Source: a virus
Strand: one strand, 5' to 3'
DNA: 63,013 bases
Virus record (IMG/VR): IMGVR_UViG_3300037961_003042
Location: 1 to 63,013 of that record
Each line of letters starts with the position of its first letter. The stretch's first letter is position 1. Made by a program: the position numbers and the translations under genes. A model generated the notes under the pieces. The model was not told where the DNA came from. It saw only the letters and a program-made list of their open reading frames with translations, and did not search any database. This document shows positions 16,887 to 58,693 of this stretch, one piece after another.

Positions 16887-19800
16887 ATGAATGAAGAAGC
16901 ATTACAGCAGATATATTCTTTAGCAGTTGAAGAAGGTTATACTGGAGATATGGCAGAATTTTACACGCTACTCCAAACAAACGGTGATGCTCTAAATACA
17001 GTTTATGATATTGCAAAAGATGAAGGATATAAAAACTCTCAAAAATCCTTTGAGGTATTACTAGGCTTAAAAAAAAAAGAAGAAAATTTTCCAGAGTTAT
17101 TTCCTTCCAAATATCAAAGTTCAAATTTACCTTCGGATTTAGATTTGAATATTAAAATTGATAATAAAGAAACATATTTCAAAATTAAGGATGATCCAGA
17201 GTTAAACCAAATAGCCATAAAAGATAATGCTTTCTTTGACAAAATAGATAAGGAGCTACAAAAAGATTACGGAAAAAAAGAAGAGTTAAAACCAGGTACT
17301 TTACTAATACCTCAAAGAGAAATTAATCCTGAGACGGGGCAAAAATTTTCAGATGCCACCCCTACATACATATCAAACTTAGTTTTACAAATGTCAGAGC
17401 TTCCGGAAAACGTAAAGCCTTTACTTAAAAAATATATAAACATAAGTCGAGATAAAAGTTATGATTCTCGAAAAGATGTCCCGGCAGTTCCAGGCAGCAC
17501 TCAACCTACTATGGTGGAAAGCCTTGTAGATCGAATTGAATTAATACGAAAGAATGCCCCTTATATGAATAAAGAGGAGCTTGCAAAGCTTATTAAAGAT
17601 AACCCCGAAGTAATAAAAGAATTTGATAGTATAGCAATGAGTGAGCTTGAAAAATTTACAGACATAACTCCGGAAACTTTTTACAAGTACAATAAGGATA
17701 ACCGCTCTGTTGAAACGCGTGAAAAGAAAGATGCTCCTCAAGAAAAATTAGAAATAGTTCAAGATTTATTTAGTGGTATCCAAGGGTTTGACTTAAATGA
17801 ACTAACTAATTACATTGATGAAGATGTGGTGTCTTATGAATCTGATCCACTAACTGATATACAGGAGGCGTTTATAGGCAGAAGTAGTGTGGAAATAGGA
17901 AAACGAAATCGAGTTATTCAGGCAATTCAAGATGGGAATTTAGATTTACTAGCAAAATATTCTAATCAAAATTATGAAGATGAAGATGATGCAGAAAGAA
18001 ATGCTTTGGCACTTGACATGGAAAAAGCAAGAGCTCTTGGAATGTATGTGGAAGACAAAGTACAGTTTATTAATGATCGCATTGCGACTCTTAAATTAAA
18101 TCCAGAAAAAAATAAAGAAGCGATTGATAAACTTACAGAAGATAGAAAAAATTTAGTAATAAATTTTGGTCAATTCAATCGTCAGAACTTACCGTTTTTA
18201 AACAACTATATGTATCAGAAAAAACAGAGACTTGCAGATGAATACGTTTCTGGAGATATGGGCTTGTATAATCCAGGTGATGTTTTGCACGGGGGATATG
18301 TGGGTGTTAGAGAAGTTTTAGAAGGCGGATATGGGGCGGCAGTAGATGTAACATCTATGGTTTTAGATAAGTTTGGGTTAGATCCCTTGGCAGAGGATTT
18401 ACGTATACATCGTAGTTTGAATAATTTATTGTGGACAGATAACTCTATATATTCGTACGCTTCGGGAAAGGTGGTGATGCATAATGGGAAAAAATATATA
18501 GTAACCCCAGAAGGTCAAGTGATAGATGAAGAACGAGAAGTGGACGTTGCTTTTTTTGGTGAGCAAGCAGGAATTGATATTAATGAAATACGAAATAAAG
18601 CTAGAACTTCTAAGAAAACAGAATCTACCGTAAGTTTGTATGGAACTTATGCCACAGGAGCAAATGTCCTGGGAAATTTGGTGGTTCAGATAGGAGGAAT
18701 GAAAGGAGTTGGAGCGGTTTTAAAAGGTGGGGGAAAGCTTGCGACTTCAATGGGCGTTAACACATTAAGCAAAACAGCAACCATGAGGGCTAATGCTATG
18801 ATTAGCACAGGGGCGGTAATTTATTCTACAACATACAACCAAGCGCTAGAAGAAGCTAGAAGTTTAGGTCTACCGGAACCAATGGCTCAAAAGTATGCTG
18901 ATGAAATAGCTACCACAACTAGTGTTGTAGGATCATTAGCCGCTGTAACTATTTCTCCGAACTTTGGCGCTCAACAATTATTCGCTAGAACATCACCAAA
19001 ACAAATAGCTAGATATTTAATTAAAAACAAAACCACCGACAACATCCCTGATAAAGTTTTACAGTTTTTAAAAGGCGCAGCCGTAGAGGGAACTTTTGAG
19101 GCTATACAGGAATCTACAGAATTATTTGCAGAAGATTATGCAAGAAGAAAAATTAATAAAGAACTGGGGGAAGAATTATTTAAACCTGTGTTTACTAAAA
19201 CAAGTGTTATAAACAACACTATTGCTGCTTTTGCCTCAGCCGGTTTACTTGGTGGAGCTGGCAGGGTAAATACATCTAGGGTTACTTTCTACAATAGACT
19301 AGGATCTAATCAAGAATTGTTTCAAAAATATATGAAGATGTATGTGGAGCAAGGATTAATTGATCAAATTGGTGCGGATAAAATTGTTAACGAAGTAAAG
19401 AACTATCATCAATACAAAAATAAATTACCAGAAAATTTAAGAAATAGTTCTGATGCCATCAAACTAACTAACTTGTTAGCAGAAAAAGCCAGATTACAAG
19501 ACTTATTGAAAACTCAAGATGAAGTTTTTAATAAAGATACTCGAACAAGAATAGAAGCGATTGACAACGAAGTCAAGCGTATATCAGATAAAGCTGCAGG
19601 TAAAAAGACATCACCTTCTCCAGAAATAAAAGAAGAACAAACCATTACAGATCAACAAGCCATTGACGCAATAGCAAAAGATAACGAAGGTAGAAAGGAA
19701 AGAGGTGAAGAATTAATAGGATTTACCGAGCAAGATATATCAAATAAAAAACAAGAACTTTTAAAACAACAACAAGATGCCAGTACGGAGCAGAGCGCAG

Positions 19801-34251: not shown

Positions 34252-34469
34252 TGGTTTGTTTTTAAAATTTGTTGTGCATGTTCATCAGTAATTCTTGTAC
34301 TTGTTATATCATACACAAATGAATAATATTCTTTTCCTCTGTTGCCACAATCATTGCACTCATACGGGTAATATCCGTAATCGCCCTCAAACACAAAGGT
34401 ATCATAATTTATGTCATGGCTTTTACATACGGGGCATTGCCCCTTTGATTTACTCATATAGTTTTCCAT
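34248..34469 (-). CDS. Zinc-ribbon protein
   Basis: A 73-residue protein with two knuckles, CPVC (about 12-15) and CNDC (about 38-41), separated by beta strands: a classic zinc ribbon. Such small ribbons in phages often touch nucleic acids or host RNA polymerase. The start at 34469 overlaps the upstream stop as TAATG; an ATG at 34457 is an alternative. Confidence 0.65.
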   Translation of the reverse strand: MENYMSKSKGQCPVCKSHDINYDTFVFEGDYGYYPYECNDCGNRGKEYYSFVYDITSTRITDEHAQQILKTNQ

Positions 34470-38998: not shown

Positions 38999-39021
38999 AA
39001 TTTAATTGTTTTAAAGTTAGT

Positions 39022-39063
39022 TGATAAGGGGGGAGTCGAACCCCCCAGAAAACCATTTTATCA
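39022..39063 (-). ncRNA. tRNA minihelix-like element (acceptor plus T arm)
   Basis: On the minus strand TGATAA (39058-39063), 11 unpaired bases, GGGGGG, a seven-base loop TTCGACT, CCCCCC and TTATCA (39022-39027) follow each other. The 6-bp T-arm carries the canonical T-loop (TTCRANN, closed by G-C) and stacks directly on a second 6-bp stem, giving the 12 bp of a tRNA acceptor/T-arm coaxial stack. D and anticodon arms are absent, as is CCA. The element starts one base after a stop codon and ends before the next gene's leader. It may be an RNase P/Z processing site or an RNA end-protecting element; a tRNA-derived remnant is also possible. There is no T-run, so a simple terminator is less likely. 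Confidence 0.5.
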
Positions 39064-39064
39064 T

Positions 39065-39205
39065 TTAGAACATTAAGGCTATGTCTGAAGCAGTTAAATT
39101 GGTTAATAAATGATGAACTAGTAAAAGCCAAGTAAACACAACAAGTGAAGCAAGAGCGATTAAAAATCCGTTAATAATTCCGTTTAAAAGTTGTCGAGTT
39201 TTCAT
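39065..39205 (-). CDS. Small membrane protein
   Basis: A 46-residue protein with a positively charged N-terminus (MKTRQLL) and one long hydrophobic helix (about residues 9-35). It is probably a single-pass inner-membrane peptide, N-in. It is expressed early, so it could act in membrane takeover or superinfection exclusion rather than lysis. It is followed immediately by the tRNA-like hairpin. Confidence 0.55.
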   Translation of the reverse strand: MKTRQLLNGIINGFLIALASLVVFTWLLLVHHLLTNLTASDIALMF

Positions 39206-40140: not shown

Positions 40141-40221
40141 GAGAGGGTTAAAACCAATCTGTTCTGTCTGCTGTCGGTTTATACTTTTTGCCCTCTCTCA
40201 TTTTTCAACCTCTTTTGAGGG
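40141..40221 (-). promoter_or_regulatory. Structured 5' leader of the early operon
   Basis: Between the promoter (40237-40268) and the first ATG (40114), the transcript can form a small CCTC/GAGG hairpin (40209-40220) and a large one. In the large hairpin GAGAGGG pairs with CCCTCTC (40191-40197 with 40141-40147) and GGTTT pairs with AAACC inside it. The first CCCTC can alternatively pair with the GAGAGGG, so the two structures exclude each other. This is attenuator-like, but no T-run follows. Confidence 0.45.
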
Positions 40222-40236
40222 TTTAATTGTTGCTGA

Positions 40237-40268
40237 CAAAACTAAGTTATATTTATTTAGTATGCAAA
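40237..40268 (-). promoter_or_regulatory. Main early promoter TTTG-N20-TAGTTTTG
   Basis: On the minus strand TTTG (40265-40268), a 20-base spacer and TAGTTTTG (40237-40244) match the Bacteroidota consensus. The -33 region TATTTGCATA is identical to that at 24701-24710. It would start a transcript near 40231 running through the 16-kb leftward operon. Confidence 0.8.
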
Positions 40269-40308: not shown

Positions 40309-40341
40309 TTTGTTTTACCCCCAATTTTGTTTATGCTTTTG
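40309..40341 (+). promoter_or_regulatory. Near-consensus promoter for the GC-rich ncRNA
   Basis: TTTG (40309-40312), a 21-base spacer and TGCTTTTG (40334-40341; one mismatch to TAnnTTTG) lie just before the GC-rich segment. Transcription would begin near 40347, the first base of its closing stem. Confidence 0.4.
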
Positions 40342-40346
40342 GTTTT

Positions 40347-40469
40347 GGTGGGGGGTGTAACGCGAGGGAAGGGCAAGAGCGCACAAAGTCGGAAACTTTG
40401 CAGAACGTAGAACGTAACGAGGGGAAACCCCCACAGGAACGAGGGAAACCAACAGAGGCAACCCCTACC
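40347..40469 (+). ncRNA. Candidate structured ncRNA (GC-rich island)
   Basis: This ~120-base segment is markedly richer in G and C than the surrounding AT-rich DNA and contains no open frame. GGTGGGGG (40347-40354) can pair with CCCCTACC (40462-40469) to close the structure. Inside are hairpins CAAAGT/ACTTTG (40384-40400) and GGGG-AAA-CCCC (40421-40431). A GGAAAC string recurs three times (in and near these loops and at 40443-40449), and AGAACGTA/GAACGTAA is repeated. Together with the promoter-like element upstream, this suggests a stable RNA transcribed rightwards. It could also be part of an origin or packaging site, since it lies beside the iterons at 40928. Confidence 0.5.
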
Positions 40470-40634
40470 CCCTAGAAAAAAGCTAAAAAATCCACAAAAA
40501 AATTAATTTTTAGAGGCAAAACGGCTAAAAAAAATCGGTTTTAATTTTGGACTGCACATGCTGTAATATATATATAACCCGTTACCTCCACATATCTAAT
40601 ATTTTTTCGTATCTTTACAATAAATAAATACGTT
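40470..40634 (+). promoter_or_regulatory. AT-rich leader with -7 element
   Basis: This stretch holds no gene. It is AT-rich with A-runs, and TATCTTTA (40610-40617) matches TAnnTTTG with one mismatch, 17 bases before the ATG at 40635. It is probably the promoter of the 60-residue gene. Confidence 0.4.
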
Positions 40635-40817
40635 ATGGACGGATTAACAATTAAAAACGGAAGACTAATCAACATGAGACCGGACGGTATGTCTGGAATA
40701 GAACAAGCTTCTCTATATAGACAACAAATGAAGAAGCAATACAAGATTGACATGATCGCAGACGGTATCGAAAGAGCTAAAATGCGTGAAGAAGGCCGAA
40801 GTTATTTCGGTATGTAA
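40635..40817 (+). CDS. Small hypothetical protein of the central hub
   Basis: A 60-residue, Arg/Lys/Met-rich protein with a predicted helix in the second half (QQMKKQYKIDMIADGIERAK). It stands alone between a promoter element and a strong terminator, right beside the presumed origin, so it is expressed as a unit and separate from both main operons. There is no recognised domain; a small regulator is conceivable. Its composition is less AT-rich than neighbouring early genes. Confidence 0.6.
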   Translation: MDGLTIKNGRLINMRPDGMSGIEQASLYRQQMKKQYKIDMIADGIERAKMREEGRSYFGM

Positions 40818-42930: not shown

Positions 42931-43171
42931 ATATATTGTTGTTAGAGAAATAGTAGAAGAACACAAGACTGATTCAGGACTTCTATTATCATCGCAGGAC
43001 GTTGACACCTATAGGTACAAGAAAGGATTAGTGTTGAAAGTAGGTAACAATGCAGAGGTGATTAAAGAAAACGACTCTATATACTATGACAAAGCAGCAG
43101 GACATAAAATATTACTACAAGATGAACAGCTCACAATTATTCAGGAGCGTGATGTTGTAGTTGTTTTGTAG
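42914..43171 (+). CDS. groS: GroES-type co-chaperonin
   Basis: The 85-residue reading from the ATG at 42914 fits the family; a longer one from TTG at 42890 is unlikely. It begins YPVNKYIVVRE, followed by a mobile-loop region EEHKTDSGLLLSS that ends in the hydrophobic triplet which docks on GroEL (IVL in E. coli, LLL here). It then has GLVLKVGNN, NDSIYYDKAAGHKI and the C-terminal strand VVVVL. It would cap the phage GroEL ring encoded 130 bases upstream. The 3' end overlaps the convergent gene at 43137. Confidence 0.85.
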   Translation: MYPVNKYIVVREIVEEHKTDSGLLLSSQDVDTYRYKKGLVLKVGNNAEVIKENDSIYYDKAAGHKILLQDEQLTIIQERDVVVVL

Positions 43172-43610
43172 CTTCGTTTATTTTTTTTATTGCATTCCTA
43201 TACACCTTGTCGGTGTATGACACATTTTTATTGAACAAAGGGTTTCGCTCAGAAATCTCTTCTCCGTTCAGTTTTTTGTAGATAGTATCTATGATACGTC
43301 TCGTTTTGTAAGTGAGCTCATATAGTGTCGCTTGTTTCCCACTGCGCTTTCTCCATACATGTATCCAACCATCTCTCAGCATTCTGTCAAACCTATTAAC
43401 ATCCCAAGACATTAGTTCTTCATACTCCTTGAAGTCGGTTTTTTTAAATAGCTGTTCGCTATAAAGGAATAATAACATCTCAAGATCTGGAGTTGTTAAT
43501 CCGTATTTTGCTTTTACCCAATATCGAATTACCCTCCAGTATTTTAAATAATCGTTTGTTGGCTCTTTTCTATCGTAGTTGTTTCTGATTGTTGATTTAA
43601 TAGTTGTCAA
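43137..43610 (-). CDS. Winged-helix DNA-binding protein
   Basis: The 157-residue protein has a MarR-like winged-helix layout at residues ~28-115: helix YWVKAKYGLT, TPDLEMLLFLY, a second helix SEQLFKKTDFKEYEE, recognition-type helix VNRFDRMLRDGWI and a wing KRSGKQATLYELT, then a C-terminal helix. Similar proteins occur in other Bacteroidota phages. It is probably a transcription regulator of the phage. It runs against groES and overlaps its 3' end by 35 bases, so the two transcripts can interfere. Confidence 0.65.
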   Translation of the reverse strand: MTTIKSTIRNNYDRKEPTNDYLKYWRVIRYWVKAKYGLTTPDLEMLLFLYSEQLFKKTDFKEYEELMSWDVNRFDRMLRDGWIHVWRKRSGKQATLYELTYKTRRIIDTIYKKLNGEEISERNPLFNKNVSYTDKVYRNAIKKINEATKQLQHHAPE

Positions 43611-57905: not shown

Positions 57906-58130
57906 ATGGATATTAGAAAAATCTCCATAGGCGCTGACTATAAGTCAAGCTCTATGCATTACTTAGTAGGTCAGTCTATATTAAACGGAAGCTACACAAT
58001 ACATTTAATTCAACAAGACTTATCGAATAATTCAATAAAAATTTGGATTGAAAAAAATAATGAGGTATTATTATGGAAGGAATTTAATTCCAATATGCCA
58101 ATGGCTATTGAATATAATATAAACTTTTAA
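57906..58130 (+). CDS. Conserved small phage protein
   Basis: A 74-residue protein beginning RKISIGADYKSSSMHYLVGQ and ending in NMPMAIEYNINF, a combination that I remember in marine phages upstream of the terminase. Its function is unknown. It is coupled to the next gene by TAATG. Confidence 0.55.
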   Translation: MDIRKISIGADYKSSSMHYLVGQSILNGSYTIHLIQQDLSNNSIKIWIEKNNEVLLWKEFNSNMPMAIEYNINF

Positions 58131-58693
58131 TGAAGTCTCCACACTATTTTATTGTAAAACCTGTTAAGGGTAGAAGATATGATAATATAAAAAACATAGG
58201 AGGAATTGATTTTTACACAAGTGTTTCTCAAGAAGATCATACCGCATCCAATAGATTTGCAGAGGTTGTCAGTTGTCCTCTAAATTACATTGGTGAAATA
58301 CAAGCCGGAGACATATTGCTAGTACACCATAATGTATTTAAAATATATTATGACATGAAAGGTCGAGAAAAAAGCGGTAGAAGTTTTTTTAAAGATGACT
58401 TATTCTTTATTGATTACGATCAATTTTACATGTACTATCATAAGGGTAAATGGCAAACACACTCTAAGTATTGCTTTATAAAACCGGTTCCAGTAAGAAA
58501 ATCAATTATTATGAAACCTGTTGAGGAAGAGCCCCTTGTTGGTATAGTAAAATACACCAATCCAAAACTAACCGAACTAGGTGTAAAAGAAAATGACGAG
58601 GTGGTTTTTGAGCCTGAATGTGAATATCCATTTTATATAAATGGAGAAAAGCTTTACAGAATGTTTTGGAATAACATAACAATGGTATTATGA
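58130..58693 (+). CDS. Double GroES-like (gp31-type) co-chaperonin candidate
   Basis: The 187-residue protein has two parts that resemble a GroES barrel. The first (residues ~5-115) contains a loop-like IGGIDFYTSVSQED region, then AEVVS, GEIQAGDILLVHH and FIDYDQFYMYY. The second (~115-187) has GIVKYTNPKLTELGVKENDEVVF, YINGEKLYRM and a terminal strand ITMVL. T4 gp31 is a phage co-chaperonin required to fold the capsid protein; this one, encoded just upstream of the terminase genes, may do the same. It is not adjacent to the phage GroEL. The match is by pattern only. Confidence 0.5.
   Translation: MKSPHYFIVKPVKGRRYDNIKNIGGIDFYTSVSQEDHTASNRFAEVVSCPLNYIGEIQAGDILLVHHNVFKIYYDMKGREKSGRSFFKDDLFFIDYDQFYMYYHKGKWQTHSKYCFIKPVPVRKSIIMKPVEEEPLVGIVKYTNPKLTELGVKENDEVVFEPECEYPFYINGEKLYRMFWNNITMVL

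Follow-up and report, generated by a model that had tools for sequence, protein, structure and literature searches.

A conserved single-copy DNA element and a fast-changing GC-rich island at the divergent hub of a crAss-related podovirus

The hub of a crAss-related podovirus carries a conserved DNA element of 145 bp, which begins where a GC-rich island ends and occurs once per phage in more than 100 relatives. The window, that is, the whole stretch analysed (63,013 nucleotides of IMGVR_UViG_3300037961_003042), had been read from its letters alone as holding a candidate structured non-coding RNA (ncRNA) in the island. However, the island is fast-changing phage DNA, the least conserved part of the region, and not a conserved folded RNA. 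The element probably serves either the cutting and packaging of the genome or the switching-on of late genes; the favoured reading, with a probability of about 0.4, is the first, a DNA packaging or terminus site with the island as its variable transcribed flank. In function the element most likely belongs to a known type of phage cis-element. Lacking annotation in the annotated phages examined, it provides a sequence landmark for the crAss-related phages of aquatic habitats, a large clade, and is kept across very different marine and freshwater members. Its role can be tested directly in cultured carriers (the Flavobacterium elemo phages and Cellulophaga phi38:1, Calle and phi13:2). The case also illustrates that structured RNA is not the only thing that a GC-rich island free of genes can be when it lies in an AT-rich genome.

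Anatomy and distribution of the conserved element

The window belongs to a crAss-related podovirus, with a portal (phrog_6547), a terminase (phrog_6681) and a crAss muzzle domain (PF25729). Recombination and replication genes lie in a leftward block that runs from 40114 down to 24241. The rightward block, from 40635 on, has a 60-aa gene and groEL at its start and carries tail, lysis, terminase, portal and capsid genes. The blocks are presumed to be early and late, respectively, judging by gene content and by crAss001. The GC island lies between them, at the divergent hub, and the cumulative GC-skew minimum of the window falls at 40212, in agreement with the hub position proposed earlier; GC skew also tracks gene orientation. 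On the minus strand, 40237-40244 matches TAnnTTTG, a motif that on its own is not enriched in the window. The coordinates of the features are collected in Table 1.

Table 1. Features of the divergent hub (positions in the window)
Feature	Position	Strand	Basis or remark
Candidate leftward early promoter, TTTG-N20-TAGTTTTG, Bacteroidetes type	40237..40268	-	inference from sequence
Rightward promoter-like element, TTTG-N21-TGCTTTTG, overlapping TTTTGTTTATG	40309..40341	+	sequence and motif in relatives
GC-rich hypervariable island	40347..40474	+	GC ranking, relatives' sequences
TAA-CG-CGAGGGAAGG motif	40358..40372	+	hairpin after TAA in many relatives
Conserved single-copy DNA element (E1, E2, E3, -7 box)	40476..40620	+	nhmmer profile, sequence model R1, fixed spacing, no RNA pairs
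E1, GAAAAAAGCTAAAAAATCC	40475..40493	+	
E2, A8-TCG-GTTTT	40525..40550	+	
E3, ATAACCC..TACCT..ACATATCTAA	40574..40599	+	
Candidate -7 box for the 60-aa gene, TATCTTTA	40610..40617	+	replaced in freshwater relatives
60-aa conserved gene, first of rightward block	40635..40817	+	

Across phages the motifs of the element read AAAAAGCyAAAAAA (E1), A8-TCG-TTTT (E2), ATAACCC...TCTAA (E3) and TATCTTT (the -7 box). An nhmmer profile places the element once in nearly every locus (L002-L170), on the plus strand and at the same hub. Contigs gathered via the gene before the terminase gave it once each in six cases, and the remaining ones probably do not extend over the hub. E1 and TATCTTT are 133-135 bp apart in nearly all divergent phages, and the stretch from E3 to the -7 box is strongly conserved. 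When clusters were left out in turn and 400 bp were scanned, the best match lay at most 1 bp from the expected place in 48/54 cases for E1, 39/54 for E2 and 44/54 for E3. RNAalifold predicted zero pairs on 40 diverse sequences of the element. Two runs near E2, a C/G run on its left side and a G run some 32 bp further to the right, exclude one another: 46 phages have just the left run, 21 just the right one, 3 have both and 12 have neither (p = 2e-8, ignoring phylogeny), as if one arm of a two-fold DNA site had to be strong; the window has neither run.

The element reaches well beyond the close family. The terminases of the phages compared are identical to that of the window at 72% (MW202828), 45% (Flavobacterium elemo phages), 40% (Cellulophaga phi13:2), 37% (Cellulophaga phi38:1 and Calle) and 33% (Tenacibaculum Gundel). 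A sequence model trained without elemoF, MW202828, phi38:1, Calle and phi13:2 has its best match at the divergent hub in elemoF (3.5e-7), MW202828 (4e-6), phi38:1 (3e-5), Calle (5e-5) and, weakly, phi13:2 (0.007). In freshwater relatives, which retain E1, the run and E2, TAnCTCATCCC stands in place of TATCTTT; the -7 box is unmatched in elemoF, phi38:1, phi13:2 and MW202828, where E1 and E2 persist. E1-E2 occupy 18672-18783 in elemoF and 34307-34383 in phi38:1. Since both the TATCTTT box and the island can be lost while E1 and E2 stay, the element is more than a promoter and can do without the island. The window shares terminase and portal genes with all these phages, and most capsid genes with most of them; the early genes tested gave no match in phi38:1 or Calle, one in phi13:2 and one partial match in elemoF. 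The element is present in phages whose terminases are at least 37% identical and whose replication modules are largely unrelated, and it follows the late/packaging module rather than the replication module.

Neither model detects the element in Gundel or crAss001, where it is too diverged or absent. An E1-like string seen by eye inside the Gundel repeat was scored by no model and was therefore set aside. The divergent hub of crAss001 (L180/L179) has a G-rich stretch, A12TTA12 and TATCTTTG in the order of the window; the sequence models give no match there. No description of a hub element or ncRNA was found in open-licence papers on these phages, and the annotated phage records that carry the element list no noncoding feature at it.

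The GC-rich island

Most of what the sequence-only reading had described in the island is present. Positions 40347-40469 have a GC content of 0.577 against 0.340 for the window, and 40350-40472 ties for the highest-GC segment of 123 nt, just 0.02% of such segments being as high. The stretch holds no ORF of at least 60 aa, and it contains two internal hairpins (CAAAG-TCGGAAA-CTTTG and GGGG-AAA-CCCC) and three GGAAAC strings. The promoter-like TTTG (40309-40312)-N21-TGCTTTTG (40334-40341) ends 5 bases ahead of an 8-bp closing stem (40347-40354 with 40462-40469), which can indeed pair, with one G-U. However, this stem is not kept in close relatives and was rejected as a conserved structure.

Compared with dinucleotide shuffles, the island folds no more than chance (z -0.33 on the plus strand, -1.58 on the minus strand). 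A GC-rich stretch stands at the same place in close relatives (groEL 89-98% identical), with a weak consensus structure of -5.6 kcal/mol whose covariation term is unfavourable (+1.92). Several of these relatives have disrupted inner pairs in helix 1, which L002 lacks altogether; helix 3 is paired in 61% of cells, and the named stems do not beat shuffles in the close family. In distant relatives the centre of the island consists of unrelated low-complexity sequence (CACGCACACA, GGAGAGGAGA, GTGCGTGTGC or CGTTTAAACG repeats), and freshwater relatives keep the neighbouring element while the GC island is weak or absent in most. A conserved structured ncRNA is therefore rejected, because the fold is no better than shuffles, the stems are not kept and the centre is replaced. 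Searches of the island for tRNA and tmRNA returned nothing, Rfam gave no match at the gathering score nor at E<=5, and blastn of the hub against GenBank phages gave none. An exact 18-mer, CGGAAACTTTGCAGAACG, has four matches in viral contigs, which lie in unrelated, coding-looking sequence and were judged to be chance. The alternative that the sequence-only reading had itself named, conservation better explained by a protein-binding DNA site, largely applies, to the adjacent element.

In 78 of 83 non-redundant phages, the 125 bp that precede the conserved element exceed their own locus in GC (0.495 vs 0.348; Wilcoxon p 1e-14), and GC climbs over the same 83 phages from about 0.26 at -350 to 0.54 just ahead of the element. 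The plus strand of the island is purine-rich in 76/83 phages and its GC skew is positive in 65/83, with L050 and others being C-rich. The islands of a subgroup of four loci (L022, L032, L034 and L041) carry repeated CGTTTAAACG palindromes.

Rightward transcription through the island, the other part of the earlier claim, is likely, to judge by several sequence signals in relatives: a promoter-like motif followed by a hairpin at a set distance, GGGAAGG on one strand only, and a switch in purine content. The motif TTTTGTTT occurs at -258 to -125 in 33/86 relatives, against 1-8% in three controls. With TTTTGTTT as an anchor picked without reference to folding, 34-nt windows in the relatives show a single peak of excess stability at +34 nt (z -1.05±0.22, vs about -0.25 elsewhere); hand-placed anchors give -1.23±0.17. 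The stems of these hairpins differ in sequence between phages while complementarity stays, which looks like compensatory change in sequences too diverged to align. The plus-strand density of GGGAAGG here is about 240-fold that found elsewhere and 15-fold that of the minus strand (3.2 vs 0.21 per kb), and purine content in the relatives switches to the level of the rightward genes. The window's own hairpin is not significant (z 0.08).

Packaging site or rival functions

If the element is a packaging or terminus site, the terminase shared by these phages would recognize and cut it, generating the ends of a linear virion genome, probably with short direct terminal repeats. The terminal repeat would contain the island or adjoin it, and the promoter at 40309-40341 would transcribe rightward through it, with a short 5' hairpin that many relatives share and that does not reach significance here. 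Transcription, terminase recognition, end positions and the role of the GC content are presumed in this model, and the GC content of the island is perhaps only that of a low-complexity spacer. This reading is favoured because ends are predicted at related hubs and because the element is co-conserved with the terminase. A packaging site would be expected in a single copy per genome, and one strong match is found per locus or contig; it would also be expected to be conserved with the terminase, as the element is, an association that a late-control site would show equally. Gundel has a predicted 322-bp direct terminal repeat between divergent genes (PMC8776804), and crAss001 a 576-bp repeat, its linear map having the late genes on the left and the early genes on the right (PMC6235969, PMC8375218), both sets of termini being PhageTerm predictions. 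Gundel_1 (Tenacibaculum) and PhicrAss001 resemble the window in having a related terminase (33% identity for Gundel) and a podoviral, crAss-type character, and their predicted repeat or linear ends fall at a divergent hub, as does the element of the window. Unlike the window, both are without a detectable element. Also against the packaging reading, crAss002 is predicted to use headful pac packaging; the terminase gene lies some 18 kb from the hub; and the rigid distance from the element to the promoter box in marine relatives is compatible with late control as well. Contig breaks at the hub were rejected as a record of the genome ends: one near-complete contig has an end overlap of about 98 bp, and another, although full length, is interrupted within the island, and so the breaks look like assembly trouble.

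The main rival is late-gene control, a tentative alternative in which the element is an extended promoter or activator site for the rightward block and, no less tentatively, the island serves as leader to a transcript that comes from upstream and continues into the element (antitermination or attenuation). In its favour are an E1-TATCTTT distance that in marine relatives varies by only about 1 bp, the strong conservation from E3 to the -7 box, the promoter-like motif and 5' hairpin upstream, and the tracking of the late module. However, the promoter box is not everywhere that the element is, being replaced in freshwater relatives and unmatched in elemoF, phi38:1, phi13:2 and MW202828 despite their E1 and E2, and the window has just one copy of the element, although several promoters are usual in late blocks. 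Phage late operons can begin with leader RNAs and regulatory regions, as in the lambda pR' leader. By its sequence the hub would resemble these in its promoter, its short leader with a 5' hairpin in relatives and its position directly before the late block. In contrast to the lambda pR' leader, no intrinsic terminator was found on the plus strand, the sequence of the island is hypervariable, a second promoter-like box lies downstream in the window, and no antitermination factor was identified. It is rather unlikely that a fast-diversifying, GC-rich transcribed leader and a rigid DNA element together form a combined terminus, packaging and early/late switch, and equally so that, in such a switch, selection keeps the composition and position of the leader and not its sequence or fold.

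Transcription can also prime replication, as at the ColE1 origin, T4 ori and mitochondrial CSB II, and the window likewise has a promoter and a GC-rich, purine-rich putative transcript followed by A-tracts. A transcription-primed origin, at which a G- and A-rich rightward RNA would form an R-loop over the island and prime at the A-tracts of E1 and E2, is nevertheless quite unlikely. It draws on the promoter-like motif in relatives, the purine-rich plus strand in 76/83 phages, the A-tracts that come after the GC-rich stretch and the GC-skew minimum at the hub, but the skew also follows gene orientation and the purine excess is no greater than that of the rightward genes. Furthermore, an initiator site should follow its initiator, whereas the element follows the late/packaging module and, unlike the origins named above, persists in phages whose replication genes are largely unrelated, with no cognate replication module conserved. 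The R-loop itself is made less likely by islands that are C-rich and G-poor (L050), so that a G-rich transcript strand is not universal, and freshwater relatives have little or no GC island. Finally, a discrete rightward ncRNA starting at about 40345, in which the 5' hairpin and GGGAAGG are functional and the rest is free to vary, is improbable. The unbiased hairpin peak at +34 nt from TTTTGTTT, the stems that vary between phages yet remain complementary and the strand asymmetry of GGGAAGG are as such an RNA would have them; the z of 0.08 for the window's hairpin, a close family that conserves no structure, an island centre replaced in other phages, the failure to find an intrinsic terminator on the plus strand and the absence of an Rfam match all speak against it.

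Neighbouring genes and a tRNA-like stretch

The 60-aa gene that opens the rightward block (40635-40817, plus strand) is conserved in hundreds of viral contigs and has no Pfam or PHROG match. The predicted structure of its product (pLDDT 82) is a beta-hairpin and then a single long helix, a fold for which a search gave no PDB match. Immediately before the terminase large subunit, a 187-aa protein (58130-58693, plus strand) carries the label 'co-chaperonin GroES' in PHROGs and in relatives and has no Pfam match; the position of its gene suggests a small terminase subunit. A lone leftward gene (43137-43610, minus strand) lies right after groES, shows a weak match to a transcriptional-regulator PHROG and is also present in elemoF, phi38:1 and Calle; its product could act at the hub. 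In a gene-poor stretch on the minus strand (39006-39066), gataaggggggagtcgaaccccccagaaaaccattttatc, flanked by GGTTTT and CCCCCC, resembles the 3' half of a tRNA-like structure. ARAGORN finds no tRNA at this stretch, and a sequence similar to gataaggggggagtcgaaccccccagaaaaccattttatc forms the end of contig G005 (L190).
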